This document shows, piece after piece, positions 26,740-49,972 of a stretch of 64,000 nt of DNA. Position 1 is the first letter of the stretch; the number at the start of each line of letters is the position of its first letter. The DNA is from a virus. The notes under the pieces are model-generated. The model saw nothing but the letters and a program-made list of their open reading frames with translations, did no database searches and was not told where the DNA came from. The stretch covers positions 1 through 64,000 of the IMG/VR virus record IMGVR_UViG_3300039106_000244. One strand, given 5' to 3'. The position numbers and the translations under genes are program-made.

Positions 26740-26745
26740 ATTGTA

Positions 26746-26774: not shown

Positions 26775-26803
26775 GTATTTAATATAGTACAGCCTCACGT
26801 AAT

Positions 26804-26811: not shown

Positions 26812-26816
26812 TAAAC

Positions 26817-28892: not shown

Positions 28893-30391
28893 CTTAGGAC
28901 CTTGACTCCATATAAATTTTGAAAACGATCTGCATCATTACGATCGTTAACCATTGGCTCGCCACGTATATTTAAACTTGTGTTAAGTAACATCGGACAC
29001 CCGGTCCATGTATACCATAAGCACAATAGTTCACGTATGCCACTTCCATCACGTGGAACAGTTTGCACACGACTTGTACCATCTACATGTATTATAGCAG
29101 GAAATTCGTTGGGGCGTAAGCACTTTGCAGTCGTTTGCATATATCTACTTGATTCAAATCCTTTGGGCATTTCGAAATATTCATTTGCAAACTCTTCTAG
29201 TATTACAGGAGCAAACGGTCTAAACTTTTGTCTACGTTTAATTAAGTTTACAGCATCTTTAATGTCTGCGCCACGTGGATCAGCAAGTAAACTTCTATTA
29301 CCTAATGCTCTCGGACCAAACTCTGCACGACCATTGGCAACACCAACAATCTTATTTGTCATTAGCTCGGAGACAATATCCGCCACAGGATATATCCCAG
29401 GAATATTATGGCCAAGAAAAGCATCCACCCAATTAAGTTTGCCCCCGTGCGCAAGCGCCGCTGCTCCAAGGCTGCTACCAGCATCGCCAGGGTTAGGCAT
29501 AATCCAAATATTATCAAAGTCAAAAAACTCTCCTAAATGTCTATTTGCACTGCAATTAAGCGCAACACCGCCAGCATATACTAAATTACTACTTGGTGCT
29601 AACTTCTTTGCTTTGTACATTATATTGTATATTAATTGTTCTGTCAATGATTGAGCTGCATTAGCAATTTCAAAGTCATTCCAGCGAGCACGTATATCAC
29701 TCTCTGGCAGACCAATATGTAAGTTGTGCTTTAATGTTAAATCAAACTCATGCTCTATTAGCCAAGACGACAACTCATTGTATAGATGTCGTGTATTTTT
29801 TTGAGCCCACCCTGCCATGCCCATTAAAATGTATTCTTCGTCTAATGGTTTAAGTCCGACTTCTTTTGTAAATGCACTGTACATTAAGCCGATACTGTGT
29901 GGATATAGTTGACGCCATACTCTTGTGTATTGTGCTTTGCCATTTACATATTTTGCAGACCATATGCTTATAGTATCCCACTCGCCGATTGCATCAATTA
30001 CAACAACCGTCGCATCATCAAACGGACTTGTTTGAAAACCTGCAGCCGCATGTGATAGATGATGATTATATGTTTTGACTGGGAGATGATGTATCGGAGA
30101 TTCTAGCACCATCTGTTTAAGCATGCCACGCACTGTCCATGGAGTTTTTAGTTCGCTATACTGACCAGAGTAAAGTTGACGGGTCTTTTTAACTAATGGT
30201 CTTTCATAATATGCAATTTGATTAGGTGCACCGTAGGTTAATGCATCTGCTATCAACGCATTGTTTAAGTTTGAATCGTGTTTAATTTTGCTATAACGCT
30301 CAGCATGACCTGCAAAGACAATATCATCGCCTTTGATTAATGTAATTGCTGCGTCATGAAACCCAGCACTAATTCCGAGAATATTTTTCAT
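28889..30391 (-). CDS. NodU/CmcH-family carbamoyltransferase
   Basis: 500 residues. N-terminal ASKHA-like domain: LGISAGFHDAAITLI at 4-18, the metal His motif YNHHLSHAAAGF near 108-119, VVVIDAIGEWDT. C-terminal domain: YAGGVALNCSANR, GDAGSSLGAAAL, AEFGPRALGNRSLLADPR and FRPFAPVILEE. These are the full signatures of O-carbamoyltransferases such as NodU and TobZ, which use carbamoyl phosphate and ATP to carbamoylate a sugar or antibiotic hydroxyl. In this cluster it most likely decorates a sugar made or transferred by neighbours. The stop of the next upstream gene abuts the start. Confidence 0.95.
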   Translation of the reverse strand: MKNILGISAGFHDAAITLIKGDDIVFAGHAERYSKIKHDSNLNNALIADALTYGAPNQIAYYERPLVKKTRQLYSGQYSELKTPWTVRGMLKQMVLESPIHHLPVKTYNHHLSHAAAGFQTSPFDDATVVVIDAIGEWDTISIWSAKYVNGKAQYTRVWRQLYPHSIGLMYSAFTKEVGLKPLDEEYILMGMAGWAQKNTRHLYNELSSWLIEHEFDLTLKHNLHIGLPESDIRARWNDFEIANAAQSLTEQLIYNIMYKAKKLAPSSNLVYAGGVALNCSANRHLGEFFDFDNIWIMPNPGDAGSSLGAAALAHGGKLNWVDAFLGHNIPGIYPVADIVSELMTNKIVGVANGRAEFGPRALGNRSLLADPRGADIKDAVNLIKRRQKFRPFAPVILEEFANEYFEMPKGFESSRYMQTTAKCLRPNEFPAIIHVDGTSRVQTVPRDGSGIRELLCLWYTWTGCPMLLNTSLNIRGEPMVNDRNDADRFQNLYGVKVLS

Positions 30392-31033
30392 TTAAATCCA
30401 TCCCAGAGACCTAATATGTTCATAAATTTTATCCGCTACTACTTGATGTCCTGCTTCTAAGAAATGTCCGCCTGGACCACGCGGTGTAGCATAAGTCCAA
30501 TCTGTCATATTATCTTTTAACCAACCAATATAATATCTATGGTCAACTTGGTTTAGTAATTGCATAATTTGCGCATCAGTTTTAAAATCACCGAAATTAT
30601 TACCAAACGAATCGAGCATTAGATATTGTTTATTTTGTTGTTGAATAAAATGCTGTATTAATAATATGTTAATTAAATATTGTCTATACAAATAATTATC
30701 ATCGTGATATCGGTTGATATAGTTTAATAGGTCTGCTCTATATGATATTGGACCATTAAACATAACTCCACTGTGTCCGGGCCACGTATCATAAACGCCA
30801 TAGTTGTCAGCAAATTCAATTCTAGCATAATGGCTCCACGCAATGATAATCAAATCATAATCTGCAGCATGTTCTACTACGTTCCTAATCATACTAGTAT
30901 TACCAGTCGATGATTTGCCAAGATTTGTTAATTCGCATGATAATTTATTTTGTAAAACATATGGCCATGCCTGTTTAATATCTGTTAACTCATCGCCATA
31001 TGTAAAACTGTCACCAACCGTTAATATTTTCAT
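30392..31033 (-). CDS. SGNH/GDSL hydrolase-like protein (copy 2)
   Basis: 213 residues. Block I TVGDSFTYGDEL at 5-16 is clear; a GNTS segment near 44 may be the oxyanion block; the C-terminal GGHFLEAGHQVV gives the His block, but the Asp of the usual D-x-x-H is absent. It could be a weak or altered esterase. Overlaps the 33-residue gene upstream (ATGA) and abuts the carbamoyltransferase downstream. Confidence 0.82.
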   Translation of the reverse strand: MKILTVGDSFTYGDELTDIKQAWPYVLQNKLSCELTNLGKSSTGNTSMIRNVVEHAADYDLIIIAWSHYARIEFADNYGVYDTWPGHSGVMFNGPISYRADLLNYINRYHDDNYLYRQYLINILLIQHFIQQQNKQYLMLDSFGNNFGDFKTDAQIMQLLNQVDHRYYIGWLKDNMTDWTYATPRGPGGHFLEAGHQVVADKIYEHIRSLGWI

Positions 31034-31131
31034 TTGTAAATAAATGGATCACGTTTGCGTAATTCTTTTAATTTCTTACGGTATCGTATTTCTAATGTAA
31101 TTCTATTGTATAAATTCGTTAACCAATTCAT
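31030..31131 (-). CDS. 33-aa basic peptide with strong ribosome site
   Basis: 33 residues, starting MNWLTNLYNRITLEIRYRKK and ending in a short basic stretch and RDPFIYK. A very good ribosome site, AAGGAGA, lies 6 nt upstream of the ATG at 31131. The stop overlaps the next start (ATGA). The 5' part overlaps the end of the upstream SGNH gene in another frame. The peptide is a single basic amphipathic helix without Cys. From memory, similar tiny proteins ending in RKRDPFIYK-like sequence occur in T4-like marine phages, which would argue for a general phage function; the match is not verified. Confidence 0.75.
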   Translation of the reverse strand: MNWLTNLYNRITLEIRYRKKLKELRKRDPFIYK

Positions 31132-31924
31132 TGTAGTTCTCCTTAATGTAGTTCATGGCATCAATGTGTGCTGGCTCCAATGGGTGTGTAGTAGCAAACG
31201 GGTATTTAAAATCTCTAGCCCATGTATAAAATCCCTGATTGTTTGGAAAAGTAACCCACCGATTAAAATCAAGTTGATTGTATAATGTTATTATATTTTC
31301 GTCATTCATTAAATGGGTACAATTATTCAACAATGCTTCATCAACCATCGAAAATATATATGGTATTTTCTTTAATTGTAGATATTGTTGCAACATGGTT
31401 ATTTCTGTTAGCGAATTATATGTTTCCCAATATGCAGTTGACCCAATATGTTTATAAAAGGTTTTAGCAAAATCTGCTGTGCCAGTTTGTTTAGCTCGTA
31501 ATAAATGATTAGTATGATGCTGTAATATTGCTGTATTATTAGTTTTAAATTCTTTTTTTATTTGTTCTACATCATCAATGATGGACCATGGATTTAAATT
31601 ATACCAATTTCCCCAACGCTCACCTGTATCATAATCAAATCTAAATTCGTATCGGCCCGGAAATGTCCATGTTACAAAAACTAATCCTACATCTTGTAAT
31701 TTTTCACATGCATTCATAACAGTGCGGCGAATTGCACTATTACTAAATCCCGGATAGGCTACGCATTCGTACTGCATATTAAAATCTTTAGCCAAAAGCG
31801 CAGTAAAGGTTGATTGGCTAACAATTGGGCGGGCTGGTTCGGTCCCATTGGGATCAAATGGTGTAACTCCATCAGCAAGTTCACTACCGTATGTAAAACT
31901 ATCGCCCCCGGCTACTAAAATCAT
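31103..31924 (-). CDS. SGNH/GDSL hydrolase-like protein (copy 3)
   Basis: 273 residues. Block I AGGDSFTYGSEL at 5-16; SNSAIRRTVMNA near 62 as possible oxyanion region; C-terminal THPLEPAHIDAMNYI as the His block, again without the Asp three residues before the first His. Related to copy 2 (shared GDSFTYG-x-EL, a WARDFKYPFATTHP versus WTYATPRGPGGH end). ATGA overlap with the upstream gene. Confidence 0.82.
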   Translation of the reverse strand: MILVAGGDSFTYGSELADGVTPFDPNGTEPARPIVSQSTFTALLAKDFNMQYECVAYPGFSNSAIRRTVMNACEKLQDVGLVFVTWTFPGRYEFRFDYDTGERWGNWYNLNPWSIIDDVEQIKKEFKTNNTAILQHHTNHLLRAKQTGTADFAKTFYKHIGSTAYWETYNSLTEITMLQQYLQLKKIPYIFSMVDEALLNNCTHLMNDENIITLYNQLDFNRWVTFPNNQGFYTWARDFKYPFATTHPLEPAHIDAMNYIKENYNELVNEFIQ

Positions 31925-33018
31925 ACATATCCTCGTTTGATATGTTGTACTTGTAAGTCTATATAATTTGCATCAGACCAATTATACCGATAAGTTGCAG
32001 ATGCATGACTAGTTCTTATATTATACACATCTAAATGTAATCCGAGTCGGTTCCATATAATATTATAATCATCCGACCCAAATGTTCTATGTAAGTCGAC
32101 TTGTCCTACTTGCGGATGGCCGATTGTCAATGATTTATCATTTGGATCAAATCCATTATCTATTAGCCATTGAGTGAAATCTGTGAGCTCTTTTTTCATC
32201 CAAGAAAAATTACCAGGACTAAGTGCCCACTCAATATCAAAATCTCCGGCGGCTTCGGTTTGTGATCGCATCGCCGATGTCGTTAAATCATCAATGGTAT
32301 GCCCTCCTTTACCTTCATCACGAAAGACTTCGTAATGATGCTTGCCAATGGCTTTATTGACTCCAACAAATACGCCACCTGCTGGTCTATTTAAACTTTC
32401 AATTCCAAATAATTCAAAGTCATTAGCATCCAATGTAAATCGTGGTGCATTCAACCAACACATTAATTGACTAGGTCGACGCCATTCCGGCGCATGAATT
32501 GCTTTACGCATACTTAATACAAGCGACTCATACTCGTGACATAATAAATTTAGCTGGCGGATGTGCCATTTAATAGTATCAGTGGCCTGATTATAATATT
32601 TAGACATGTGTCCACTTACACCTTGTAAATCTTCAAAGTATCTATGTAAATGATTTAATTTGTCGTGTACTAATTTGCCACCTTCGAGAAATTCGCCAAC
32701 CGGACCGGGCACTATAGTATTTTCTACAGTAAAATGATCAGTAATTTGGTATCCAAGGTCTGCTTGATTTATTGCAGCTATTGATAAATTGATTTGATTA
32801 GTAATATATTCTGCATTACGTTCCGATTCGATAAATCCGTGAAAGCAGTAATTTTTCTCAAGGTGATAGTTATTTTCTATTAGATTGTTTAGGGCCGATA
32901 GCCATTTACGACTAAGCGAGCTATCAAATATATCAATATATACTGTTAAGAGTTTATTAGTTTTATTATTTTTTAAATCAATTTCAATTTGATCAAGCAA
33001 TGTTGTTGTACCACTCAT
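31921..33018 (-). CDS. uncharacterised protein linked to radical SAM genes (365 aa)
   Basis: 365 residues. No catalytic motif recognised. The first ~95 residues look like an alpha/beta domain (LLTVYIDIFDSSLSRKW). Positions 105-150 are a distinctive block (PGPVGEFLEGGKLVHDKLNH, LHRYFEDLQGVSGHMSKYY). The C-terminal half is beta-rich (NRPAGGVFVGVNKAIGKHHY) with many His and Trp residues. It overlaps the upstream radical SAM gene by 26 bases and the next SGNH gene by 4, so it is tightly co-expressed with them and could be a partner or substrate carrier for the radical SAM enzyme. Confidence 0.75.
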   Translation of the reverse strand: MSGTTTLLDQIEIDLKNNKTNKLLTVYIDIFDSSLSRKWLSALNNLIENNYHLEKNYCFHGFIESERNAEYITNQINLSIAAINQADLGYQITDHFTVENTIVPGPVGEFLEGGKLVHDKLNHLHRYFEDLQGVSGHMSKYYNQATDTIKWHIRQLNLLCHEYESLVLSMRKAIHAPEWRRPSQLMCWLNAPRFTLDANDFELFGIESLNRPAGGVFVGVNKAIGKHHYEVFRDEGKGGHTIDDLTTSAMRSQTEAAGDFDIEWALSPGNFSWMKKELTDFTQWLIDNGFDPNDKSLTIGHPQVGQVDLHRTFGSDDYNIIWNRLGLHLDVYNIRTSHASATYRYNWSDANYIDLQVQHIKRGYV

Positions 33019-34294
33019 ATACTTCCGGTCTCTCTTTTAAGATGTCTGCTAATGTATACGTATCACCACGAATACTTTCTAATTGTAGCACACGAGCCTT
33101 ACCTTTTGCAAGACTTACTTTATATGTATCTGGCCATTGCTCATCAAATGTCGGTCGTGATTTTAACTGTACAAGTATATCTTGCATAGCACCAGAAGTT
33201 TGTGGTATTAGTTCATCTAACCATGGATGTAATAACTTGCGCGGCAGTGCCAAGGGACTAAGAATAATATCAGGGCTAAAGCTAAAAACAACTTTAGCCA
33301 ATATATCTACTTTTTCTTCGTTAGCAAGCTGGGTAATGTTAATAACTTCAAACATTCCCGGCATTGTGAGTGTGAAGTCGATTCGCATTTGTCTGCGGTT
33401 AGTTGCAATTTTAACTCCTTCACGGAAGTTTTCAAGCCATTGACTATAATTAAGTCCTGTTCTAATATATTCGCCAATGCGACCAGTTCCGTCGAGACTG
33501 GCACAGATTTGCCAGTCACGTAACCTAGATAAAATATCGCTGAAGAGATTGATGCCACGATAGTCGATGCGGCTAAGATTAGTATTGTACCTTGCATAAG
33601 CATTCTTTCCATCTCCCAAATCAATTATGCGTTTCATATAACGCCAATGCTGTTCGTACATTAAGGGCTCACCGCCAACCCAATATACTTCCTCAACTTG
33701 ATGATTCTCGACTGCTTGAGCAAACTCCTGTTCAATTTGACTATCTTGAAATTTTGATATTTCGCTTCTCACTTCGGGCTTCATCCAATTATTCTTTGGA
33801 TTGTGCCAATTGATCATATTATGTTGTTTTTGTTCAGTTTCCCAAGCACTTGACAACATATCGCCACACATGCGACATTTAAAGTTACATAAGTTACTAA
33901 ATCTATAATCCCAACTTATAGGACGCATAGTTGTATAACCTGTTTCGTCTGTTGTTTCTATTACTTGCAAATATTTATTTTCGAACATTTGATCAAAATA
34001 ACTACGGTAAACTGATGTATTCAACAGCTTATCATTACATACTTCGCACTCTGGGAGGGTTTCCCCAGCAATCATGCGACGACGGACCGACCGCATGTGC
34101 TCGCTATTCCAGTGTTCATCCAGAGTTATTGGAATGTATTTGCCCGTTCCGGCTTTTGTATCAATATACTGCTGAAAGTTTTGCGCAGGTTCGCGACTAG
34201 CACAGCACATACGTCTTTCTGTGACAGGGCTTAAATAGGTATGGAGAAATGGCGCAAAACAGAAATTCTCTGGCGGCTTTTTAGGAATTGACAT
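32993..34294 (-). CDS. radical SAM protein, permuted SPASM/twitch-core order
   Basis: 433 residues. The auxiliary-cluster-like motif comes first: Cys12 (NFCFAPF), Cys30-Cys31, then HWNSEHMRSVRRRMIAGETL and Cys83-x-x-Cys86. The radical SAM core follows with Cys136, Cys140, Cys143 (NLCNFKCRMCG) and the SAM-binding GGEP at 207-210. Core enzymes of this class generate a 5'-deoxyadenosyl radical; SPASM/twitch members usually modify peptides or sugars with help from extra Fe-S clusters. No SPASM motif follows the core. The start overlaps the 851-residue fusion gene by 14 bases. Confidence 0.9.
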   Translation of the reverse strand: MSIPKKPPENFCFAPFLHTYLSPVTERRMCCASREPAQNFQQYIDTKAGTGKYIPITLDEHWNSEHMRSVRRRMIAGETLPECEVCNDKLLNTSVYRSYFDQMFENKYLQVIETTDETGYTTMRPISWDYRFSNLCNFKCRMCGDMLSSAWETEQKQHNMINWHNPKNNWMKPEVRSEISKFQDSQIEQEFAQAVENHQVEEVYWVGGEPLMYEQHWRYMKRIIDLGDGKNAYARYNTNLSRIDYRGINLFSDILSRLRDWQICASLDGTGRIGEYIRTGLNYSQWLENFREGVKIATNRRQMRIDFTLTMPGMFEVINITQLANEEKVDILAKVVFSFSPDIILSPLALPRKLLHPWLDELIPQTSGAMQDILVQLKSRPTFDEQWPDTYKVSLAKGKARVLQLESIRGDTYTLADILKERPEVYEWYNNIA

Positions 34295-36836
34295 AACCCA
34301 TTGCTAGTGCAATTTCCTTATGTGTTGTTAGCATACTTTGTTCGCGATATGCATCTGTCTGTTGCATTTTTTGTAAGAATTCTGTACCATCACTTCCTGC
34401 GCCGTTTTCAATGAACTGAATTATTTTATCAATTTCAACACGATGCTTAACATTAAATGGGTAATCATTCAATCTATCTATAACTAATTTTTGTGCGGCT
34501 GGTGTCATACGATTAATACACATAACATTTGGGTCATGCAACATATTAAAATGCACCATGTCAAATTGTTGAGTATTAACCCAGTCACATAGCTCAGGTA
34601 GATAGTAAACATTTTGTATGTTTATAGTCATGCATACCTGTGTTTGAATTAGATTAGTTTTCATTGCATTAAATTTTATAACATTGGTTTTTACTTCGTC
34701 CCACACAGCACCATAACGTTCATATTCAAATCGTGCTTCGATATTATCTATGCTAACTGCAATTTCAATGTTTCTAAATTTACCCCATAAACTTACTTCT
34801 TCGTCTGAGGGATATACAGTACCATTAGTATTATAATGTATATCTATACGTTTACTATATCCATGTTCTACTGCATAACGTAATAGTTTAAAGTGTTCTT
34901 CAATTAAGAATGGTTCGCCACCTGTAAATTCAAAGTACTTGATGTTTGGTAATAGTTCTTTTAAATTTTCCCAGAACACTTCACTTTCTCTTGGCCAAGT
35001 TCCTTCTTGTAAGAACATGTATGCACTATGTTGTTTGCGGTCATATCCTTGTACGTCTTTGTATTTTCTAGCTTCGTAATCAATTTCTTCTTTGGCCCAT
35101 TTACTGCTAGACCACGAGCCACATATACGACATTTAAGATTACAGATGTTGCCTAGCTTAAGATCAATAAACCAAAGTTGGTCAGGTTTATCATTCTTCC
35201 AATCAACAATAGGATAAAACTCTTTAAGTCTAATTCTGCTATTAATACGCTTACTAACTATACCGGCATCTTCTTCCTTCCAGCAACGATTACATGTAGA
35301 TGGCTTTTCACCCCGACGGAATTGTTGTCGTAAGTCTTGCATATATTCACTGTTGTAAATTTCTGCCAATGAACTTTCTTTTAGCTTATACGGTGTACCA
35401 TCACTTTTAGTAATCTCATCTGTTGCTAAACAACATGGGCGAGCTGTGCCAACCGGACTTGCTTCAATACTAACCCACGGTAACATACAAATATTATCGT
35501 GTGTCTTGTTAATACCTAAATGATCACGTAACTCTTTATATTCCGGAAACACTTCTTCAAATGTTTCTTTTCTCATTGAATCAGTTTGATCATTTATCTT
35601 AAAGAATTCTTTTAATAAGTGACTTTTGTCGTCTTGATACATAAATGTAATAATAGCTTTATAACCCGAGATAGCTCGTTGCAATTGATCTTGTGGTGCA
35701 AGCCATGCGATATGTTCTTCGACACGTTGTTTAATTCTATCTTTAAATTGAATTGGTAATACATCAATACGATCGCGTTCCGGACTCTGTAGAATGTTTA
35801 CGTTCCAATCCATTGCTTTAATTAAGCCAAGTTCGACCCATTCTTTATGGAATTCTGTTAAATGCCATGCATTAAGTATACTAACTGTACTGCTAACATA
35901 AAAGTCAACATTAGGACAAATTTCAATCATTTTGCGGCGATTTTCTACTGTTTCTGCCCAGTCTTGACCCTTGCGGATATATTCTCCACGAAGATAAGAA
36001 TCATCTAAACTTGCGCCTACACTTACTACATCAAATAGTTTCCAGTATTCAAACACCATCTTATCTTTAAGACGAATGTGACTAAAGTTTGTATTATATA
36101 CTAATCTAACATGGAACATTTTACGTTTAACTAATTCTTCTAGTATACGATAATGTTCTTCCATGATAAGTGGCTCACCACCAGCAAAGTAAATTTGTTC
36201 TAAGTAAGGGATATGTTCTTGCATCTGCTCCCACATATCATCTTTCTCTTTACCAGCAAACATAATTTGTGGGTGATTTAACTTACCAAATAGTTTTGTT
36301 TCTTCGGCAAACCAACTACTACTAAACAAACTACCACATGTTCTGCAGCTGAAGTTACATAGATTACTAAAGCGTATGTCATAGTAGCGTAATTTAAAAT
36401 CATCTAAACTACCATCTGGATTAGTTTTGTCTGTTAGTGCAATATGATGTCCGAAGTTTTTATTTTGGCTATTGCGCATTGAAAAGAAGCCGTTGTCTTC
36501 TTGTTCATAACAACGTGTACATTCTTTAGAAGGCTTATCTTCTAACATATTGATACGCATTTGTTTGTACGGAGTACCATTCCATACTTCTGCCATTGTA
36601 TTTTCTTTAAGATTACCTATAGGCAAATGCATCTCACCTAAACAACAAGGATATGCTCTGCCATCTGGGATACCATGCATGTGTGTCCACGGTATCATAC
36701 AGAAATATTTACTTTCTATTAATTTATATGTATGGTCTTCTGTTAAATCATCTTCATGTATGTACACTGGCTTACGTGTATTGTAATTGTGATTTTTATG
36801 ATGTACTGTTAATTTCTTGCTTGGCTCATCGCTCAT
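34281..36836 (-). CDS. tandem double radical SAM fusion, each half with N-terminal SPASM/twitch motif
   Basis: 851 residues containing two complete copies of the cluster's module. First half: Cys46 (YFCMIPW), Cys64-Cys65, WNGTPYKQMR, Cys106-x-x-Cys109, then core Cys160, Cys164, Cys167 (NLCNFSCRTCG) and GGEP near 215. Second half from about 450: ICMLPW, a PCC pair, IYNSEYMQDLRQQ, CNRC, then core NICNLKCRICG near 563 and GGEP near 640. All cysteines of both halves are present, so both could be active. The fusion suggests that two related steps are done on one substrate or that the units pair. ATGA overlap upstream. Confidence 0.9.
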   Translation of the reverse strand: MSDEPSKKLTVHHKNHNYNTRKPVYIHEDDLTEDHTYKLIESKYFCMIPWTHMHGIPDGRAYPCCLGEMHLPIGNLKENTMAEVWNGTPYKQMRINMLEDKPSKECTRCYEQEDNGFFSMRNSQNKNFGHHIALTDKTNPDGSLDDFKLRYYDIRFSNLCNFSCRTCGSLFSSSWFAEETKLFGKLNHPQIMFAGKEKDDMWEQMQEHIPYLEQIYFAGGEPLIMEEHYRILEELVKRKMFHVRLVYNTNFSHIRLKDKMVFEYWKLFDVVSVGASLDDSYLRGEYIRKGQDWAETVENRRKMIEICPNVDFYVSSTVSILNAWHLTEFHKEWVELGLIKAMDWNVNILQSPERDRIDVLPIQFKDRIKQRVEEHIAWLAPQDQLQRAISGYKAIITFMYQDDKSHLLKEFFKINDQTDSMRKETFEEVFPEYKELRDHLGINKTHDNICMLPWVSIEASPVGTARPCCLATDEITKSDGTPYKLKESSLAEIYNSEYMQDLRQQFRRGEKPSTCNRCWKEEDAGIVSKRINSRIRLKEFYPIVDWKNDKPDQLWFIDLKLGNICNLKCRICGSWSSSKWAKEEIDYEARKYKDVQGYDRKQHSAYMFLQEGTWPRESEVFWENLKELLPNIKYFEFTGGEPFLIEEHFKLLRYAVEHGYSKRIDIHYNTNGTVYPSDEEVSLWGKFRNIEIAVSIDNIEARFEYERYGAVWDEVKTNVIKFNAMKTNLIQTQVCMTINIQNVYYLPELCDWVNTQQFDMVHFNMLHDPNVMCINRMTPAAQKLVIDRLNDYPFNVKHRVEIDKIIQFIENGAGSDGTEFLQKMQQTDAYREQSMLTTHKEIALAMGYVNS

Positions 36837-38209
36837 AGTGTGTCGTACCAGTCTGCTAATTGTGTAAATGTATATTTAAAGTCTTTGCCACGACGTTGGT
36901 CGTATTGTTGATAAAAGTTCTTAAAGTCACGCTGTAGTACCTCGCGTGCCAATGCTTCGCTATGCGGAGTATCCACTGTTTCTAAGTATGTAATTAATCG
37001 TCGTAGTTGATTATATTCATATTCATGCATAAAATCTACAGCAACATCGCCGAAGATACGCAATTCATCTGCGTATTGTTTACGCATTTCTAACGGTAAT
37101 ATCAATGGGCTTTGGAAACTAGGAAAACGTAAGATGTTAAGGCTAAAGTTAATTGCATCCTCGCCGTACTTCTTTTTAAGATTAACAATCATCCATAAGA
37201 ATTCTGTTAAGCTCGATAAGCACAATGCATTAATGGTACACATAACATGAAGCCCACGTAATCGTTTACTATCTAATAACCACATAACATTTTGACACCA
37301 CTGATCCCAATCTAGTCCATCACGAATATATATTGCATGTCTACCGATGCTTTCGTTGCTAGTGTATAAATCTAATTCAGTACCTTCTGTGCTATCTAAT
37401 AATCGTTCTAATACTTCGCGGTCAACTCCTAGATTACTATTAATAGCTAAACGTGTTTTACTAGTGCCTTTGTTTTCTTTAAACCAATCAAACAGGCGCC
37501 ATGTGTAACCCGACATCAATGGCTCGCCGCCGGTAATGCGTAATTCTTTTAATGTTTTGTGTAAGTCTGTTTCCCACCATTTGAAGAACGCTTCCACATA
37601 TGGATTAACTTCATTGAGTTTGAACAGTTGACTACTATCATGAACGTGAGTAAAATGATTCCTACCGTCTGATACCAAACCTGTGTATGCACCGCTTGTT
37701 TTAATGTCTCTGACCCAGGCGCTACTAAAAGCAGGGTTGCAGTAACTACAAGCAAATTGGCAAGTGCGGTCAAAAGAAATTTCCAATGTTTGCAAATTAA
37801 CGTCTTCGTTTGCAGGTAAATTGTATGCATAATCTAAATCCTCATCATTATAAATTACTGTTTTGTATACACGGTCACTAATCGGTACAGGAACATCTAC
37901 ACCATTGTACTTAGAACCCTTGTACATGTCTTCTATCTTCCAGCAGTAATCACACCCTGCAGGTCGTTCACCCTCTTGCATTTGCTTACGTTCTAATTTC
38001 TTTTGTGGCGTGTTATGTAATGCACTTGGGTTTGTTTTAATTGCTTCTAAGTCAATTGCATGAGGTAATGGATGATGACAACTTGTAGTCTGACCTGAGC
38101 CCAACCATATAGTTGCATTGTACCATTTAGCCGCACAGAAACTAGCTGACTTAATGTCAATTACTCTACGCTTATATTGTATATCTGATTCGTTATTAAT
38201 TCTCGGCAT
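36833..38209 (-). CDS. radical SAM protein, permuted SPASM/twitch-core order
   Basis: 458 residues. N-terminal Cys pattern Cys25 (SFCAAKWYNATIWL), Cys44 (single Cys followed by HH rather than CC), Cys86-x-x-Cys89 after ERKQMQEGERPAGC; radical SAM core Cys150, Cys154, Cys157 (CQFACSYCNPAFSSAW); GGEP near 227. Closely similar in order to the gene at 38916 (AKW, SC-x-HP, ALHNT, RP-A-x-C-x-Y-C), so these two are a duplicate pair now separated by a homing endonuclease gene. No ribosome site; a TATAAT box lies 6 bp before ATG. Confidence 0.9.
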   Translation of the reverse strand: MPRINNESDIQYKRRVIDIKSASFCAAKWYNATIWLGSGQTTSCHHPLPHAIDLEAIKTNPSALHNTPQKKLERKQMQEGERPAGCDYCWKIEDMYKGSKYNGVDVPVPISDRVYKTVIYNDEDLDYAYNLPANEDVNLQTLEISFDRTCQFACSYCNPAFSSAWVRDIKTSGAYTGLVSDGRNHFTHVHDSSQLFKLNEVNPYVEAFFKWWETDLHKTLKELRITGGEPLMSGYTWRLFDWFKENKGTSKTRLAINSNLGVDREVLERLLDSTEGTELDLYTSNESIGRHAIYIRDGLDWDQWCQNVMWLLDSKRLRGLHVMCTINALCLSSLTEFLWMIVNLKKKYGEDAINFSLNILRFPSFQSPLILPLEMRKQYADELRIFGDVAVDFMHEYEYNQLRRLITYLETVDTPHSEALAREVLQRDFKNFYQQYDQRRGKDFKYTFTQLADWYDTL

Positions 38210-38215
38210 TTAGTA

Positions 38216-38244
38216 ATTATAGCAGGAACAATGAAGATTGTATA
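38216..38244 (-). promoter_or_regulatory. possible promoter with leaderless start
   Basis: TATAAT (38221-38216) is 6 bp before the radical SAM start at 38209. At 17 bp spacing the -35 would be TATACA, a 4/6 match. The -10 context, TATAATTACTAAATG, closely resembles the one at 26739. Confidence 0.45.
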
Positions 38245-38251
38245 TCTTTTT

Positions 38252-38319
38252 GATAAATAAAAATGCAGTTCACGGAAGTGGAATTCCTAACTGCTCTAAC
38301 GTTCAGGAGAACAATCAGC
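38252..38319 (+). promoter_or_regulatory. GATAAATA box and paired-hairpin leader of GIY-YIG gene A
   Basis: GATAAATA (38252-38259), 5 nt, then a 30-nt hairpin (38265-38294): outer stem GCAGTT/AACTGC, CAC on the 5' side only, inner stem GGAA/TTCC with a 6-nt loop, one unpaired T. TCTAAC, AGGAGA (38305-38310) and the start codon follow. The architecture and every spacing up to TCTAAC match the leader at 6766-6833. Confidence 0.65.
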
Positions 38320-38913
38320 ATGAATATTTATCAATCAACAGAAGTGCGACCATACATTTATATCTGCACACATAAAACAACTGGAAAATTTTACATCGGA
38401 TATAGAGAAGCAAATAAAATTGCATCACATCTAGATTTTCCTTTATATAAGACTTCCTCTAAAATTGTCAGACCAGATTTTGATAATTACACCTGGATTA
38501 TATTTGCTGAATTCTTAAATGGCGAATCCGCATATCAAATTGAGCAACAACTAATTTTCGAAAACTGGAGTAACCCTTTATTAATAAATCAACATCAGAG
38601 AGTACACGCTTCGACTCCTCTCAGAGGAAGTAGGAAAAATGCAGTATTATCTGACGCTACTAAAAAGAAAATTTCCGACGCAAATAAAGGTAAGAAGAGG
38701 TCAACAGAATTTAAAGAAAGAATGGCTATTTTACACCAAGGCAAAAAACATTCACTAGAATCAATTACAAAAATGAAAATGCGAACAATGTCAGACTCAG
38801 CAAAAGCTCATTTATCGAGTATTAATAAAGGAAAAATAATGTCAGCTGAAACTAAAGAGAAACTTCGTCAAGCTAATCTAGGCAAAAAAAGAGGAAAGTA
38901 TAAAAAAGACTGA
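38320..38913 (+). CDS. GIY-YIG homing endonuclease with NUMOD3-like repeats (copy A)
   Basis: 197 residues from ATG 38320, 9 nt after AGGAGA. An in-frame ATG at 38263 would make the conserved leader hairpin coding and is rejected. GIY-YIG core: YIYICTHKTTGKFYIGYRE at about 12-30. C-terminal NUMOD3-like repeats: LSDATKKKISDANKGKKRS, HSLESITKMKMRTMSDSAKA, MSAETKEKLRQANLGKKRG. It lies on the opposite strand between two paralogous radical SAM genes, with 2 bp between its stop and the stop of the convergent gene. Free-standing homing genes of this type cut phage DNA lacking them and spread by repair. Confidence 0.88.
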   Translation: MNIYQSTEVRPYIYICTHKTTGKFYIGYREANKIASHLDFPLYKTSSKIVRPDFDNYTWIIFAEFLNGESAYQIEQQLIFENWSNPLLINQHQRVHASTPLRGSRKNAVLSDATKKKISDANKGKKRSTEFKERMAILHQGKKHSLESITKMKMRTMSDSAKAHLSSINKGKIMSAETKEKLRQANLGKKRGKYKKD

Positions 38914-38915
38914 CT

Positions 38916-40304
38916 TTAGTTCGAAGCGTGATAGTTGCACTCCTGCCAGAAGTCTGTCATCTGTGGGAACGTTTTCAAAAAGTTTAAGCCTCTGCGTTTA
39001 TCGTATTCATTGAAGAACTTATAAAAGTCTGCTCTTTGTAGTGTAACATATTCCTTAGGTAGTTCACAACCTTGTTTCATCCAATCTACATTACGTTCCA
39101 TACGTTGTATTTCGTAATCCTTAAAGCCTTCAAAGTTATCAGCAGTTTCATCTGCTTGATTTGCTCGCATAAACGTAACAACATCTTCTAATATGCGAAC
39201 ATAACTTGCTGGAAGTATTTGTAAACTTTGATAGGTTGGGCTACGTAATAGTGGCGTATCGAACCACACACGTTGATAAGTTGTGCTGTATTTGTTACGC
39301 ATCTCTAATATCTGTGTCAATAAAAGTTTTAGTCCAAGTACGTTTAAATTGTTCATTGTAATAATAAACGTTAGGCTATTGCGGTATGGCACTACTGCTA
39401 GGAAATCGTTAGTATAGCGCATGACTCTGTCCCATTGTAGACCATCGCGTATATATTCTGCATGTCTAGGAAGTCCGCTATCTAAGCTAACATACTGCAT
39501 AAAGTGTTCAATGCGTTCACCAGTGCATAGTTGTTTTACTTTGTCTAGGTACTTGTCAAACAGTTCGGGCTCAACACTAAAGTTACTAGTAACGTCTACG
39601 TGCAGATCACTCTTGGGTAAGGCAAGTATGTAATCAAATACACGATGTGTATTCTTATCCATAAGCGGTTCGCCACCAGTCATTCTAAAGTGTTTTAGCT
39701 TAGGGTACAGCTCGGGCCACCAACGCCAAAATGCTTCAACATACGGGTTAGATTCACGTACTGGGATTGGCTTGCGTCGACCTTGAAAGTGTTCAGGCGC
39801 ATTGTGTGGTACGCTTGTTGGATACGCACCCCAACGATCAATGTCTTTGCCCCACTCCGTTGAATACTGTGGACTGCAATATGAACAAGCTAAGTTACAG
39901 CCGTGACTAAAGTTTACTTCGACATAACTTGGCACAACGTCTTGGTCCCATGGTGCGTTTACTATTTCTTCATAGTGTTCGGCCGCCCACGGTTCACCAC
40001 TGCGATAGTGTCTATCGCTTAGTTGTTTGTTATCTTCTGCACTCCAACAGTAACTACATTCTGCTGGGCGTATTTGCTCTAGCATAAGTTTACGTTGCTG
40101 TTTCTTGTAATCAGTGTTATGTAGCGCACCTGGATTGAATAACAATGGAGCACTATCAATCTCATGTAAGGGCGGATGATAACAACTATTTGTTAGTCCA
40201 GTTGGCAGATGTAAACTTACTTGTTGCCACTTAGCCAAGCAGAGTGCAGGACCTAATTTATCCTTCATGTCTTCTGCAGCTGTCAGGAAATCACTTTTGC
40301 TCAT
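38916..40304 (-). CDS. radical SAM protein, permuted SPASM/twitch-core order
   Basis: 462 residues. N-terminal Cys22 (ALCLAKWQQVSLHL), Cys41 (SCYHPP), Cys83-x-x-Cys86 (RPAECSYCW); radical SAM core Cys136, Cys140, Cys143 (HGCNLACSYC); GGEP near 208. Paralogue of the gene at 36833; the two share the departure from a CC pair to C-Y/H-H. The start overlaps the TEK-motif gene upstream by 14 bases. The substrate is unknown. Confidence 0.9.
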   Translation of the reverse strand: MSKSDFLTAAEDMKDKLGPALCLAKWQQVSLHLPTGLTNSCYHPPLHEIDSAPLLFNPGALHNTDYKKQQRKLMLEQIRPAECSYCWSAEDNKQLSDRHYRSGEPWAAEHYEEIVNAPWDQDVVPSYVEVNFSHGCNLACSYCSPQYSTEWGKDIDRWGAYPTSVPHNAPEHFQGRRKPIPVRESNPYVEAFWRWWPELYPKLKHFRMTGGEPLMDKNTHRVFDYILALPKSDLHVDVTSNFSVEPELFDKYLDKVKQLCTGERIEHFMQYVSLDSGLPRHAEYIRDGLQWDRVMRYTNDFLAVVPYRNSLTFIITMNNLNVLGLKLLLTQILEMRNKYSTTYQRVWFDTPLLRSPTYQSLQILPASYVRILEDVVTFMRANQADETADNFEGFKDYEIQRMERNVDWMKQGCELPKEYVTLQRADFYKFFNEYDKRRGLNFLKTFPQMTDFWQECNYHASN

Positions 40305-41427
40305 TGATTAATATTTTTTGTAATTCGTTTAACGAAGATGCTTCATAGTAATTATACATGCAATTCTTTGCAAAGTCAATATTTTTTTTGAATCTATTAA
40401 GATTATTATACCACAGTGTTTTAGTATTATCTAAATTAATTAATAATTCTCGGTTCAATTCAATGGCAGAAATTATCCGATCTAATGGATTCTCAATGGT
40501 GTCGTAACTGTGATTAATAATATCATCAAACATATCAAACCCTACTCGTCTTAAATGCTTAACTGTTCTAACAGGTGCTAGCACAATCGGAAAATTGGCG
40601 CCATATATATTTTGTAGGAATTTTTCAGTTAAGAAACTACTTGGTTCACAAAAATTTGATTCTGTGATAATTTCTACAAATGTGTGTTGGTATATAGGTT
40701 TAAGATATAAATTAAAATTATTAACATTATCATTGAGTGATTGTTTGAACGTAGCATTGACTTTATTAAAATCAAACTTAATACCATTTCCTTGTTTTGC
40801 TTTTTGAAATCCCACAAGTATAGTATCTAAATATAAATTCTGTTGTTGCGTAGTTAACTGCCAATTACATAAATCTAGCCATGAATTATATTTTTTATCT
40901 ATCGATTGATAATTAAAAGTAATATAACCATATTGGTCAAGATCCATTCCTAATAGATAACTAACTGTAGTATAACGATGTGGTCGTAAACCACGATTTA
41001 AACACATAAAGGTAGTTAAATTATCATTGCTCTTATCTAATACACTTTCTCTATGATGTGTATGTTGCATTTGCAGGCCACCGTGACAAATTAAATGTAC
41101 ATTATTAGCAGCAATTTCTCTATCCAAATAATCCATTGCTGTGGATATTATAAATGTAGTAGCTGGATTTTTTAATGCAATATCAAGTAATACCTGCGCA
41201 TGTACTGTTCTTGTTTGTGTTGGATTATAATCAGAATGATATTGTAAATTATCTACAATGAATAATAATACCAAAGAAGATTCAAATTTTTCCTGTATTA
41301 AATCTTCGAACACCTCATTAAATGAAGCAAAGTAATATGCTTCGGCATTGTTGGGCAACGTTGTAACCATTTTCTTAAATAATTCAAAATACCATTCATC
41401 AAATGGCAGTCGTTTAAATATCTTCAT
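40291..41427 (-). CDS. TEK-motif transferase-like protein (paralogue 2 of 4)
   Basis: 378 residues. Shared C-terminal block: ITESNFCEPSSFLTEKFLQN, then LRRVGFDMFDDIINHSYD near residues 300-320. A second recognisable patch, LNRGLRPHRYTTVSYLLG near 145-162, is probably the centre of the N-terminal domain. GT10-like glycosyltransferase activity is a plausible inference. It is coupled by 14-base overlaps to a radical SAM gene and to another TEK paralogue. Confidence 0.78.
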   Translation of the reverse strand: MKIFKRLPFDEWYFELFKKMVTTLPNNAEAYYFASFNEVFEDLIQEKFESSLVLLFIVDNLQYHSDYNPTQTRTVHAQVLLDIALKNPATTFIISTAMDYLDREIAANNVHLICHGGLQMQHTHHRESVLDKSNDNLTTFMCLNRGLRPHRYTTVSYLLGMDLDQYGYITFNYQSIDKKYNSWLDLCNWQLTTQQQNLYLDTILVGFQKAKQGNGIKFDFNKVNATFKQSLNDNVNNFNLYLKPIYQHTFVEIITESNFCEPSSFLTEKFLQNIYGANFPIVLAPVRTVKHLRRVGFDMFDDIINHSYDTIENPLDRIISAIELNRELLINLDNTKTLWYNNLNRFKKNIDFAKNCMYNYYEASSLNELQKILINEQK

Positions 41428-42454
41428 TGAATATTTCTTGTATTTGATTAATTGATAAATTTAAAAAATTATTATAATTATGATCCAATATTAATTGCAT
41501 ATCATTGAGTTTAGTATGTAAAGTTTCCACTGGCCAATTAGATATACTATTCAATAATTTTTCAATGTGAGTAATACGATCATGAATACCCACTAAATCA
41601 TATTCTTCGGACCAAAATTCAGCAAATGTTTTAAATCCCAGCTTACGTAGGTTAGCAAGGTAATTAGGATTTGACATCACAATAAACGGACGTTTTGCTA
41701 TAATACAGCGCCACAGCTTTTCTGTCACTAGAAAACAATTACCACTTACATTTGGTTCACATATAATATCAACAAATATATCATTGTAATATTGTAAAAG
41801 ATTTAAATTAGTTGGATGCTGAATTGGGTAATAACTATTTTCGTGTTGAAATGTACCATTTTTACAATTATCTAAATTTTGTAAATATTCTATATCTATT
41901 GTACGTGGACACGTTTTAATAAATTCCACAGCATCAACAACTATATCACATTTAAAATTTATTAAATCATCGAGTCCAATATAACCATTGCCATTGGCAT
42001 TTTCTCTCAATGGATCATAATGATATGTTTGTATGGTTTTATTGTTATAATACTTGTTTAATATAGTTGCGATCCATAATCTATACCAATTACTTCTACT
42101 AGAGAAATTAGCAAAATGTTTAGTAGGAGTTGTGTTGATATTAAGTACTTTGTTATGTAGCCATTCTTGTATTCCGTTCACTTCATACCACGACGATGCT
42201 TGCTTATTGATAATATAATCAGGATGTTGTTCTATCATATTGCCTGTATTAATTGTTATCTGATTCTTATTATAACCTGTACGTAGACAAAATTCATCTA
42301 ACAATCTATATAATCCTAGTGCAGTAGCACACGATCCCTCGGGCGCAAAATCTATTTCTATAGTCTGTTTATTAATGTAACATTTGTACAAAAATTCAGT
42401 CAGCAATTCTTTGCGCCAAATCTTTCTATCTAATGTTTGTACATGTATTTTCAT
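41414..42454 (-). CDS. TEK-motif transferase-like protein (paralogue 3 of 4)
   Basis: 346 residues. Shared block near 235-290: IFVDIICEPNVSGNCFLVTE, then the K of TEK and KRPFIVMS, LRKLGFKTFAEFWSEEYD. Very close to the gene at 44020 in this block (EPNV(S/N)GN(C/S)F). The N-terminal half is AT-rich and unrecognised. The start overlaps the radical SAM gene at 42451 by 4 bases, so a radical SAM step and this transferase are probably made together. Confidence 0.78.
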   Translation of the reverse strand: MKIHVQTLDRKIWRKELLTEFLYKCYINKQTIEIDFAPEGSCATALGLYRLLDEFCLRTGYNKNQITINTGNMIEQHPDYIINKQASSWYEVNGIQEWLHNKVLNINTTPTKHFANFSSRSNWYRLWIATILNKYYNNKTIQTYHYDPLRENANGNGYIGLDDLINFKCDIVVDAVEFIKTCPRTIDIEYLQNLDNCKNGTFQHENSYYPIQHPTNLNLLQYYNDIFVDIICEPNVSGNCFLVTEKLWRCIIAKRPFIVMSNPNYLANLRKLGFKTFAEFWSEEYDLVGIHDRITHIEKLLNSISNWPVETLHTKLNDMQLILDHNYNNFLNLSINQIQEIFNEDI

Positions 42455-43302
42455 TTAATTTTTCTTCTTGTTACATTTTCTAAATGTATAATTTTAGATT
42501 CGATATCAGCGGTTGTAGGGCACATACTACAAACATTAGCAGCTTTTCCAAAATTCTCTAGAAACGTAGTAAGTTCTAATTCTGAACAGTCTGCTCCTAT
42601 TCCTGTTTGTAAATATTGTGCCCATTGCTCGCTATTAGGATTATTAAATCGTTCCAATGTTTCTGCTAATAAACCGCTTGTACTGCATTTATAAATCCGA
42701 CCATTATGCATCAATGGACACGTTTGTTGACAACAAATGTCAAATGCTTGTGCTGGGTTGTTAGTATGTGGTTGCATATTTTCATACGAACCTTTAAATG
42801 TCTTCCAGAATATGTCAGGTCGTTTAACATGAAATCGAAAGTTATTTGCTGTTTTATAACGTGCTACTCCGTATTCAGTAACAGGCTCCCAATCGTAACT
42901 ATCAAATATACGTTGTATAATTAATTCTAATTCTGGATTAGGTTGATGTACTGCAATCTTAAATACGCAGTTACCTACTTCGGCTAAATGTTTAACTATA
43001 TCAAACTTTTTATTTAATAATAATCCGTTTGTAGTAAATCGTATTTGTGAATCAGGCATTAGTTCACGTATCCCAAATATCCATTCATTTACTTCTGGGC
43101 TTATAGTAGGCTCACCCCCGAGTATTCCAAAATCAGGTATATCCACCCGTTCCAACCAGGATTCTAGCCAGGCCTTGCCCTGACGCCAAGGTACATATCC
43201 TTCGTGTTGTAAATCACTATAGTTTGTACAACCAGTGCAACTTAAATTGCACACCTGAGTAATCATTGTTTCAACAAACGGAAGTGTTGGCTTTACATCC
43301 AT
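42451..43302 (-). CDS. radical SAM protein with conventional C-terminal SPASM-like Cys motif
   Basis: 283 residues, compact. Core first: Cys18, Cys22, Cys25 (QVCNLSCTGCTNYSD), GGEPTISPE at 62-70. A C-terminal Cys-rich segment follows: ICCQQTCPLMHNGRIYKCST near 188-207 and CSMCPT near 266-271. This is the usual SPASM/twitch order, unlike the other radical SAM genes here. The closing C-P-L-x-x-x-G-x-x-Y-x-C pattern is typical of SPASM. It lies between an SGNH gene (10-base overlap) and a TEK transferase (4-base overlap). Confidence 0.9.
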   Translation of the reverse strand: MDVKPTLPFVETMITQVCNLSCTGCTNYSDLQHEGYVPWRQGKAWLESWLERVDIPDFGILGGEPTISPEVNEWIFGIRELMPDSQIRFTTNGLLLNKKFDIVKHLAEVGNCVFKIAVHQPNPELELIIQRIFDSYDWEPVTEYGVARYKTANNFRFHVKRPDIFWKTFKGSYENMQPHTNNPAQAFDICCQQTCPLMHNGRIYKCSTSGLLAETLERFNNPNSEQWAQYLQTGIGADCSELELTTFLENFGKAANVCSMCPTTADIESKIIHLENVTRRKIK

Positions 43303-44973: not shown

Positions 44974-45731
44974 TATTTGCAGAATTCCCAATTATACGTA
45001 TCTTGATAGGCCCAATGTAATTTTCTCCAACAATTTAATATTGTAATAGCTGTTTGGTCAAGTCGTATTCCAAATATACTCATTAATTTTTCTATTATTA
45101 AATTAGGATCTGCTGTTATTAACTCCTCAATTGATAACACCGGAATATGTTTATTAACTTCTAAAAATTGTTTTTGCTGTCTCTCGAGTATTTCTCTCAT
45201 GTTAATAGTATTCATTTTGAAATATTCGTGTTGTCCATTTTCTGATATAAATTGTGTTACTTGTTCTTCTTTATTATCATTAAATGAAAAATCCATCATT
45301 GCTTTATTATTGCCATCTACACATTTAAAATGCAATGCTCTAACTTGCCATTCTAATCCTTGAGCTGTCAATGGTGTAATATACAACATGGTTGTATCTT
45401 TAAAAAAATTATCAAATTCAGAATTTATATCCCATAGTAGAGAATGGTTTAATATTACTATTGGACTTGTAATTTTATAACGAGATTGTTTATATGTATT
45501 GTAATCAAGTGCAAGCGTGGAATCTACACCCGATATAGGATTAATAAAATCTAAGTTCCGTTCAGTGACCCACCAGCCCGATAATGAGTCAGTGGCATAT
45601 TGTGCTAAAATTGTATCGTATCTATCGCAAGATTGCTCGGGCCAATATACATCTTTACTAGTTAATAGAAGATTTCTTACTAAGTTTCCGGCGGCGCCAA
45701 CATTAGCAATTAAGAATAAATCTTTAATCAT
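44973..45731 (-). CDS. sulfotransferase-like protein
   Basis: 252 residues, AT-rich. The N-terminus (DLFLIANVGAAGNLVRNLLL) resembles a P-loop-like phosphosulfate-binding segment of phage sulfotransferase-like proteins; IVILNHSLLWDI and an STLAL segment follow, but catalytic residues are not certain. The end, CWRKLHWAYQDTYNWEF, is distinctive. Overlaps the GT gene upstream by 4 bases. Low-certainty family call; coding call is firm. Confidence 0.6.
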   Translation of the reverse strand: MIKDLFLIANVGAAGNLVRNLLLTSKDVYWPEQSCDRYDTILAQYATDSLSGWWVTERNLDFINPISGVDSTLALDYNTYKQSRYKITSPIVILNHSLLWDINSEFDNFFKDTTMLYITPLTAQGLEWQVRALHFKCVDGNNKAMMDFSFNDNKEEQVTQFISENGQHEYFKMNTINMREILERQQKQFLEVNKHIPVLSIEELITADPNLIIEKLMSIFGIRLDQTAITILNCWRKLHWAYQDTYNWEFCK

Positions 45732-46624
45732 TCTCTAGCCATTATGCCTCTATTTTTAAATACGCTTTTATAATGGTGCTTAAAGAATCTACTTTGGTCT
45801 GCTGTAAGATGCGGAGCGGCTAATCCTAATTTTACATTTAAGGTATGTGACATTTCATTACATTCTTCTACTAGATTATACACCTTATGTTGATGCCAAA
45901 TATTATTCAGTGCATCAAAGTCCTGCACTTCTCTATAATCCCAATCTGTAATCATGGTCATGTATGTACCAAGTTTTGCACCGTACATTGCCCAATCACC
46001 ATGCTCTACATCCATGCCTACGTTGTGCCATATACTTAAATGATCATAGTTGCGAGCATGTACACGTTGTTCAAACTCTTGTAGGCTCGGTTTTGTACCA
46101 CGATCTAAACACATTTTAACACCTTCTCTAAAGCCTGCTCGCCATGCCTGATATGGAGATTGATTTGGGTATGTTGTGCTATAGCAATCATTCATTGCCC
46201 AATAGTTAGGATGAAAACAAAACTCAACCGCTGTATCATCTGCACCATCACTTGCCTCATGTGTACGCATGTTGTTAACAAAGTCTTTGGTCCAACAACT
46301 CATGCCACCGTTGCCATACATAAGTCCGTTGATGTGATTACGTGCTTTCCATCGAAATACTACATCTTTATTAGTATCATCTAATGTAAGTTGTAGGTTG
46401 AAAAATTCTGGGTCAGGTAAGTTATCACCGTCAATTAGTACAAAGCGTTCTGTATCACTTGCGGCTGCGGCTGCTTTATGTGCGGCATCACTGCCTTTAA
46501 CTCCATCTACACGTTTGGCCCACGGAACCATATTTTGAATCTTAATCCAAAACTCTTCTTTTTTGGGTTCATCGTAACTTAGGTAAATGCAATCTAAGTC
46601 TGCAATATCAACGATTTGTGTCAT
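45728..46624 (-). CDS. GT-A-like glycosyltransferase
   Basis: 298 residues. The N-terminal strand pattern (LDCIYLSYDEPKKEEFW) leads to VLIDGDNLPDPEF with the metal-binding D-x-D at Asp65-Asp67, as in GT-A fold glycosyltransferases. MYGNGGMSCWTKDFVN and SPYQAWRAGFREGVKMCLDR follow. The same fold and the (S/T)PYQAWR block form the C-terminal domain of the 808-residue gene at 23396, so the two are paralogous. The start overlaps the small gene upstream by 17 bases. Confidence 0.85.
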   Translation of the reverse strand: MTQIVDIADLDCIYLSYDEPKKEEFWIKIQNMVPWAKRVDGVKGSDAAHKAAAAASDTERFVLIDGDNLPDPEFFNLQLTLDDTNKDVVFRWKARNHINGLMYGNGGMSCWTKDFVNNMRTHEASDGADDTAVEFCFHPNYWAMNDCYSTTYPNQSPYQAWRAGFREGVKMCLDRGTKPSLQEFEQRVHARNYDHLSIWHNVGMDVEHGDWAMYGAKLGTYMTMITDWDYREVQDFDALNNIWHQHKVYNLVEECNEMSHTLNVKLGLAAPHLTADQSRFFKHHYKSVFKNRGIMARE

Positions 46625-46958
46625 AGTATTCTATATCCTGATAGGTGTCAGTTGGTTCTAATATTAATCCTGCATGGTTCTTTACTGTGGCATAACCCTC
46701 AGAGCTACTTACTAATTGTATACGATACCCAGGATTGTTGTCAATCTTTTTCAGTTTACCATCTACAATTGTATAGCGGAAGTAGTTGTTATATTCATCT
46801 TTGCTAACAATAATATACATTGTATCTGTTGGGTGATTTATCATTGTACACATTGTAATGATTCCATCTTCGGTATAATGTAATCTATATTCTTTAACTT
46901 CTTCAACCGCAGGTTTAAGCATTGCTAATGCTTTTTCAAATTCACTTAAGGAGTTCAT
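46608..46958 (-). CDS. hypothetical protein (116 aa)
   Basis: 116 residues from ATG 46958, 7 nt after AAGGAG; the ATG at 46964 is too close to that site. After a helix (EFEKALAMLKPAVEEVKE) the protein alternates short strands (ITMCTMINHPTDTMYIIVSK, YRIQLVSSSEGYATVKNH). Not recognised. It overlaps coding sequence at both ends, so it is part of the glycan operon. Confidence 0.75.
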   Translation of the reverse strand: MNSLSEFEKALAMLKPAVEEVKEYRLHYTEDGIITMCTMINHPTDTMYIIVSKDEYNNYFRYTIVDGKLKKIDNNPGYRIQLVSSSEGYATVKNHAGLILEPTDTYQDIEYYDTNR

Positions 46959-48869: not shown

Positions 48870-48896
48870 ATAGGTAAGTGTAAATAACTTACCTAT
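48870..48896 (-). terminator. intrinsic terminator after the tail gene block
   Basis: On the minus strand a perfect 10-bp stem, ATAGGTAAGT with ACTTACCTAT, and a 7-nt loop, followed by TTTTTATGG. It ends transcription coming from the tail genes. The 5' arm begins directly after the -10 box of the next promoter. Confidence 0.8.
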
Positions 48897-49970: not shown

Positions 49971-49972
49971 TA

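Follow-up and report, generated by a model that had tools for sequence, protein, structure and literature searches.

A fixed operon of five N-terminal-twitch radical SAM enzymes in uncultured T4-superfamily jumbo phages

We analyzed a 64-kb stretch (hereafter, the window; positions 1 to 64,000) of the 117-kb virus record IMGVR_UViG_3300039106_000244 from IMG/VR, which carries a run of radical S-adenosylmethionine (SAM) enzymes with the cysteine motif of a twitch auxiliary-cluster domain in front of the core. The five enzymes of this run, here called A to E, are a fixed core operon of a clade of uncultured jumbo phages, rather than an accessory battery. The N-terminal-twitch architecture itself is not new, as it has already been named by NCBI (family NF033640); the new part is the fixed operon of five members, which lies beyond what the window alone shows. 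Our main reading, to which we give a probability of about 0.5, is that the five enzymes form a multi-step radical pathway making or remodelling a surface glycan, where we infer which reactions they catalyse, that the substrate is a sugar, and where they act.

Open reading frames (ORFs) were called mechanically in the window, and genes are designated by their first coordinate. Subfamily A corresponds to 38916, B to 36833, C and D to the two halves of 34281, and E to 32993. The genes for N-terminal-twitch (N-twitch) radical SAM enzymes, with their scores against NF033640, are:

38916..40304, minus strand: subfamily A, 462 amino acids (aa), 284 bits
36833..38209, minus strand: subfamily B, 458 aa, 277 bits
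34281..36836, minus strand: fused C (~35500-36836) and D (~34281-35498), two matching stretches, 720 bits
32993..34294, minus strand: subfamily E, 433 aa, best conserved among the five, 286 bits
9879..11369, plus strand: dispersed sixth enzyme outside the core operon, 496 aa, 238 bits

Conservation of the operon in the phage clade

Relatives of the enzymes in viral contigs amounted to 484 for A, at least 598 for B, and 178 for E; identities, taken from the best 80 of each, ranged from 62 to 95% (66-95% for the 80 of A). INPHARED contained no near or close match to the enzymes. A run of NF033640-type (N_Twi) genes was found in all 12 records first examined, which are 117 to 374 kb long. Considering the unique loci bounded by gene 45728 and by either 31921 or 28889, all five enzymes were present in 112 out of 115, in one order throughout. 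The initial annotation of the window had described 34281 as a double enzyme: the two modules are there, and their union is a lineage-specific fusion of normally separate genes, found in 11/131 unique loci (the window's lineage included), while most relatives carry two genes.

Since choosing contigs by the enzymes themselves was to be avoided, contigs were chosen via the portal protein. The operon was present in 13/13 portal-selected contigs reaching the site, with positions read by hand (one contig is partial, ending inside the operon, and two pairs are near-duplicates); the other five stop short of the operon site. The clade is of T4 type: the gp20 portal and the gp23 capsid protein each exceeded the cut-off in 9 of 10 records, and both are encoded in the window's record. 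A distant relationship links the tail protein 51247 to Atu_ph07, Phosso, and PA5oct.

Among ten genomes, the median pairwise identity was 73.9% for E, 69.6% for B, 67.5% for A, 61.5% for D, and 52.8% for C, and in the same genomes the portal reached 70.3% and the capsid protein 83.6%. The conservation of A, B, and E is close to that of the portal protein. Co-evolution among the operon genes was moderate (rho 0.13-0.66); single genes thus recombine, and strict co-inheritance is not claimed.

Phage metabolic genes are usually patchy accessories, whereas in this clade, which has been recovered hundreds of times from environmental metagenomes and has no close cultured relative, five paralogous radical enzymes stay side by side in a set order and are roughly as well conserved as the portal protein. 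This retention implies that the enzymes perform an important chemical step in infection, of which we found no description in the literature.

Family membership and cysteine motif

The initial annotation had named five genes, comprising six modules, and had described one cysteine order for all of them. The ORFs sit at the positions listed above, and the order (C, (C)C, CxxC, CxxxCxxC, GGEP) is exact in every module. In the alignment, C, C, CxxC, CxxxCxxC, GGEP, and Y-x-R are invariant over the six modules, with the radical SAM superfamily motifs CxxxCxxC and GGEP intact in all of them. Furthermore, the seven cluster cysteines are 99-100% conserved among 117-134 dereplicated homologs per subfamily.

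The twitch motif precedes the CxxxCxxC core in the six modules, which is the domain order of NF033640 (NCBIfam, N_Twi_rSAM, "twitch domain-containing radical SAM protein"; curated cut-off 170 bits). The profile search suggested by the initial annotation places the proteins in this family, for which we found no substrate. The five genes scored 238-720 bits, with E-values from 2e-70 to 1e-216, which excludes chance, and the two halves of 34281, scored separately, reached 394 and 337 bits. As all six modules pass the cut-off, the permuted architecture already carries a family name. Pfam SPASM (PF13186) matches 34281 twice, ahead of Radical_SAM. No paper mentioning the NF033640 family or the N-terminal twitch was found in the literature. 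The phage enzymes share score and domain order with the family, but its annotation describes no fixed operon of five members.

Comparison with BtrN and known folds

The six-module alignment is too diverse for pattern scans, which were therefore run on single subfamilies. The profile of the subfamily of the 34281 N-terminal half had BtrN (2-deoxy-scyllo-inosamine dehydrogenase, PDB 4m7t) as its top match among PDB sequences (full-sequence E 4.5e-5). Positions 34-108 of the profile align with the C-terminal twitch of BtrN (chain residues 180-257 of 4m7t), and the four cluster-ligand cysteines line up with the BtrN twitch ligands; positions 136-194 align weakly with the N-terminal core, a piece that alone is not significant. 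Since the N-terminal part matches the C-terminal twitch of BtrN and the next part its core, the domain order is reversed relative to BtrN, where the core comes first. The phage enzymes also differ from BtrN in their low sequence similarity, and their order is not that of a BtrN ortholog. The permuted twitch proposed in the initial annotation is thus supported by both the NF033640 annotation and the BtrN match in swapped order.

In subfamily A, the auxiliary ligands are C22, C41, C83, and C86, four cysteines in BtrN-like spacing, and the core ligands are C136, C140, and C143. Only four to five N-terminal cysteines are conserved in the subfamilies, and the Cx2Cx5Cx3C extension for the second auxiliary cluster (Aux II) of seven-cysteine SPASM domains is not present in the N-twitch enzymes. 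The N-terminus is therefore a twitch with one cluster rather than a SPASM with two.

The confident AlphaFold2 model of A (predicted local distance difference test, pLDDT, 88.3) was compared with PDB using Foldseek, which follows chain order; among its best matches were SuiB, SkfB, and CteB, all SPASM/twitch enzymes, as well as viperin. The SPASM/twitch enzymes with an established function mostly have peptides as substrates, and SuiB, SkfB, and CteB are peptide maturases. These points speak for a peptide or protein maturation, such as a crosslinking or epimerisation similar to that of ribosomally synthesised and post-translationally modified peptides (RiPPs), in which the substrate or carrier would be either 31921 or one of the small proteins of the operon (48532, 46608). 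The conservation of 31921 as a partner with a new fold agrees with this alternative, while no cysteine-rich or repetitive precursor was noticed, by inspection, among the conserved genes. We hold it to be rather unlikely, also on the basis of the marine and bacterial loci described below.

Gene content of the block

The constant neighbours of the five enzymes are 47787, 46942, 45728, 31921, and the carbamoyltransferase 28889. The variable cargo consists of the TEK-motif proteins, 42451, the SGNH-like genes, and additional N_Twi genes. The genes of the block other than the five enzymes are:

48532..48849, minus strand: opens the putative early operon; 105 aa (175 loci, 54% median identity)
47787..48563, minus strand: core putative transferase, labelled glycosyltransferase by inspection only (191 loci, 47% median identity)
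46942..47796, minus strand: core putative GT8-like glycosyltransferase (weak glycogenin profile match, E 0.0068)
45728..46624, minus strand: core putative transferase, GT-A-like by motif only (invariant D65-G-D67; 235 loci, 70% median identity)
42451..43302, minus strand: core-first radical SAM enzyme, variable cargo between 45728 and 38916 (Radical_SAM 1.6e-13)
40291-41427 and 41414-42454, minus strand: two TEK-motif proteins, by motif, variable cargo
38263..38913, plus strand: NUMOD3 (homing-endonuclease-type) gene, an insertion separating A from B (PF07460 9.7e-8)
31921..33018, minus strand: core partner with a new fold, 365 aa (AlphaFold2 pLDDT 85.7, predicted template modelling score 0.86)
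31103..31924, minus strand: SGNH-like protein by motif (135 loci)
30392..31033, minus strand: SGNH-like protein by motif (155 loci)
28889..30391, minus strand: carbamoyltransferase closing the block (PF02543 and PF16861; 187 loci, 62.5% median identity)

The two Pfam matches confirm the carbamoyltransferase assignment made in the initial annotation. For the transferases, no PDB family matched 45728 and no Pfam family matched 46942. Protein 31921 has no PDB relative by sequence or by fold, and its matches in BFVD are almost all in uncultured Caudovirales. The SGNH-like protein 31103 had no Pfam or PDB match. Gene 42451 had been taken for a conventional SPASM enzyme: its core does come first, and the SPASM label comes from a motif, since the Pfam search recovered just the core and gave no SPASM match; of the fetched loci, just 28 had a homolog. 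The TEK proteins resemble GT10 fucosyltransferases in their motif, an assignment that was dropped as no Pfam or PDB profile match supported it. Outside the block, a B12-type radical SAM gene is present at 126-2135, as had been annotated; the enzyme 9879 had only one weak viral relative, and a second NUMOD3 (homing-endonuclease-type) gene lies at 6076-6774 on the minus strand.

Promoters and expression timing

Two signals separate the operon from the tail gene upstream of it:

48897..48925, minus strand: perfect sigma70 promoter by consensus match (TTGACA-N17-TATAAT), at the operon head, before 48532
48870..48896, minus strand: terminator-like hairpin with T-run between tail gene and operon (-10.6 kcal/mol, z -2.6), starting directly after the -10 box of the promoter

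Within 150 bp upstream of the 48532 homologs, a strict sigma70 match was found in 37/103 loci against 0.8 expected, and upstream of the 45728 homologs in 20/132 against 1.1 expected, counts that, like the other enrichment counts, come from related loci and are not independent events. No locus had such a match upstream of the tail genes 51247 and 49973. These genes are instead preceded by ATAAATAA, a late-promoter-like word found in 36/66 and 50/72 loci, respectively, with 0.2 expected, which is probably the late promoter of this clade. The exact T4 word TATAAATA shows depletion in the window and, in the clade, falls short of the Markov expectation; its plain count upstream of the operon genes was uninformative. 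For the radical SAM genes themselves, the analysis resolved no pattern of internal promoters. Considering the sigma70 promoter and terminator on one side and the late-type motifs of the tail genes on the other, the operon looks like an early unit beside a late one, and it is probably expressed early. A late operon, as first read from the adjacent tail genes, was overturned by this promoter analysis. Perfect sigma70 promoters also occur at 4868 and 7201, close upstream of the genes for an AAA (MoxR-like) ATPase (4940-6037) and a DUF2201 putative metallopeptidase/VWA protein (7261-8541).

The position of the block bears on a second alternative, that late-acting enzymes modify or glycosylate the upstream tail fibres (48926-52620), for instance to diversify or stabilise adhesins. 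In almost every locus, marine relatives included, the block shares its strand with the tail genes and directly follows them; it is conserved like structural genes, and export machinery was not identified in it. Conversely, the hairpin and the sigma70 promoter split it from the tail genes bearing ATAAATAA, and the chromosomal counterparts do not adjoin tail genes. We judge such a decoration of the virion improbable, if somewhat less so than peptide maturation.

Marine, bacterial, and other phage counterparts

Marine contigs binned in metagenome-assembled genomes (MAGs) keep the layout of tail, putative glycosyltransferase, and radical SAM genes, with D after E. The first five genome-contig matches (L277-L281) resemble phage contigs inside MAGs and were left out of the cellular counts. 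Among bacteria, a Bacteriovoracaceae genome carries a cluster of eight N_Twi genes, all five subfamilies among them, which adjoins rplU (L21), obg, and rsfS and is therefore chromosomal. In the maximum-likelihood tree, freshwater phage, marine phage, and Bacteriovoracaceae copies group together within each subfamily, with strong support for the groups of A, B, D, and E, as well as for a wider C group. Thus, the five types predate the separation of these lineages.

The initial annotation had spoken of a phage-borne family, which is too narrow: N_Twi genes are common in bacteria, and 41/144 sampled Bdellovibrionota genomes exceeded the NF033640 cut-off. The Bdellovibrionota clusters (e.g., locus L285) share the five subfamilies with the phages, and several in other genomes also hold carbamoyltransferase, 31921-like, 45728/23396-like, and B12-radical SAM genes. 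They differ from the phage operon in being chromosomal, in their gene orders, and in their extra paralogs. Their neighbours include glycosyltransferases of families GT2 and GT1, ABC exporters, and MBOAT proteins.

Gene 31921 has three homologs in one Bdellovibrio genome, and a homolog lies in a Bdellovibrio radical SAM region. It is missing from the marine phage versions and was not detected in the Bacteriovoracaceae genome carrying all five subfamilies, which, together with a gene context leaning to glycans, argues against the peptide maturation described above.

The high density of radical SAM genes stressed by the initial annotation is true and not unique: the Campylobacter phages CP220 and CPt10 carry 11-12 of them, including a five-gene module that differs between the two sister phages and has been called likely non-essential (PMC2853527). 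The phage A-E operon is, in contrast, constant, and an identity of the two systems was rejected, as no CP220 gene reaches the N_Twi cut-off. Among isolated phages, the Vibrio phages K566/K567 and PG216 have N_Twi relatives (two above the cut-off in K566), but these share only ~22-26% identity, are not an A-E set, and come without 31921. In a single-cell marine virus fragment (L394; MH319727), a carbamoyltransferase (47.7% identity) lies next to an N_Twi relative, and the host cell of this fragment could point to a host group. The set shared with Bdellovibrionota offers a bacterial handle on the pathway, and the distant Vibrio phage clusters a culturable entry point.

Proposed function

BtrN is an alcohol dehydrogenase acting on an aminocyclitol, and its auxiliary cluster, fully ligated by four cysteines, is proposed to take up an electron (PMC6231123, PMC9012708). 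The N-terminus of the phage enzymes has the same ligand set, and for this reason we favour oxidative radical chemistry. Each enzyme would cleave SAM at the CxxxCxxC cluster, abstracting a hydrogen atom, and the auxiliary cluster would serve as electron acceptor, as proposed for BtrN. In successive steps, the five enzymes would oxidise, epimerise, or rearrange sugar-type substrates, and the product would be a surface glycan built or remodelled on the host envelope or, less likely, on the virion. Chemistry on sugars is plausible. Glycans are favoured because of the transferases, the carbamoyltransferase, and, in bacteria, the polysaccharide-type export nearby; the phage loci and the Bdellovibrionota clusters thereby support the action alongside glycosyl and carbamoyl transferases proposed in the initial annotation.

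Several observations weigh against a glycan pathway. Three of the phage "glycosyltransferases" are labelled from a motif or a weak profile match, and the genes identified in the phage block include no exporter, flippase, or initiating transferase. Pfam glycosyltransferases account for only 5 (GT2) and 4 (GT1) of 93 Bdellovibrionota neighbours and for 5/118 neighbours in other bacteria, where neighbours are mixed, and none is recognisable immediately beside the Bacteriovoracaceae cluster with all five subfamilies. No NF033640 member with a described function or substrate was found, and the promoter calls are consensus matches only.

Radical SAM enzymes serve base hypermodification in other phages, and the window also encodes phage thyA, dihydrofolate reductase, and dCMP deaminase, as would suit enzymes that hypermodify phage bases or tRNA. 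These nucleotide genes fall outside the conserved block, and the chromosomal clusters come with glycosyltransferases and ABC exporters; a role in nucleic-acid modification is thus very improbable.

More broadly, we tentatively propose, as a possibility that we rate below the glycan pathway itself, that the whole clade depends on a conserved, early, five-step permuted-twitch pathway giving the host envelope (or the virion) a chemically new glycan, and that the same pathway lies, undescribed there, on the chromosomes of predatory bacteria. The operon also provides a large natural set for asking how an N-terminal auxiliary cluster alters radical SAM chemistry.

Further features of the window

The gene at 26323-26739 encodes a small P-loop protein resembling APS kinase (PF01583 3.2e-7), with conservation in 102 loci. 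The adjoining gene at 26817-28022 has no Pfam match and is sulfotransferase-like by eye, and the pair (26323-28022) hints at sulfated products. A nucleotide-sugar cassette at 17848-23436 comprises two epimerases, two DegT aminotransferases, a Gfo/Idh oxidoreductase, and a PIG-L deacetylase. Lastly, 53447-63994 encodes a putative tail protein of 3515 aa with weak matches to CBM_5_12 (carbohydrate-binding) and FG-GAP.

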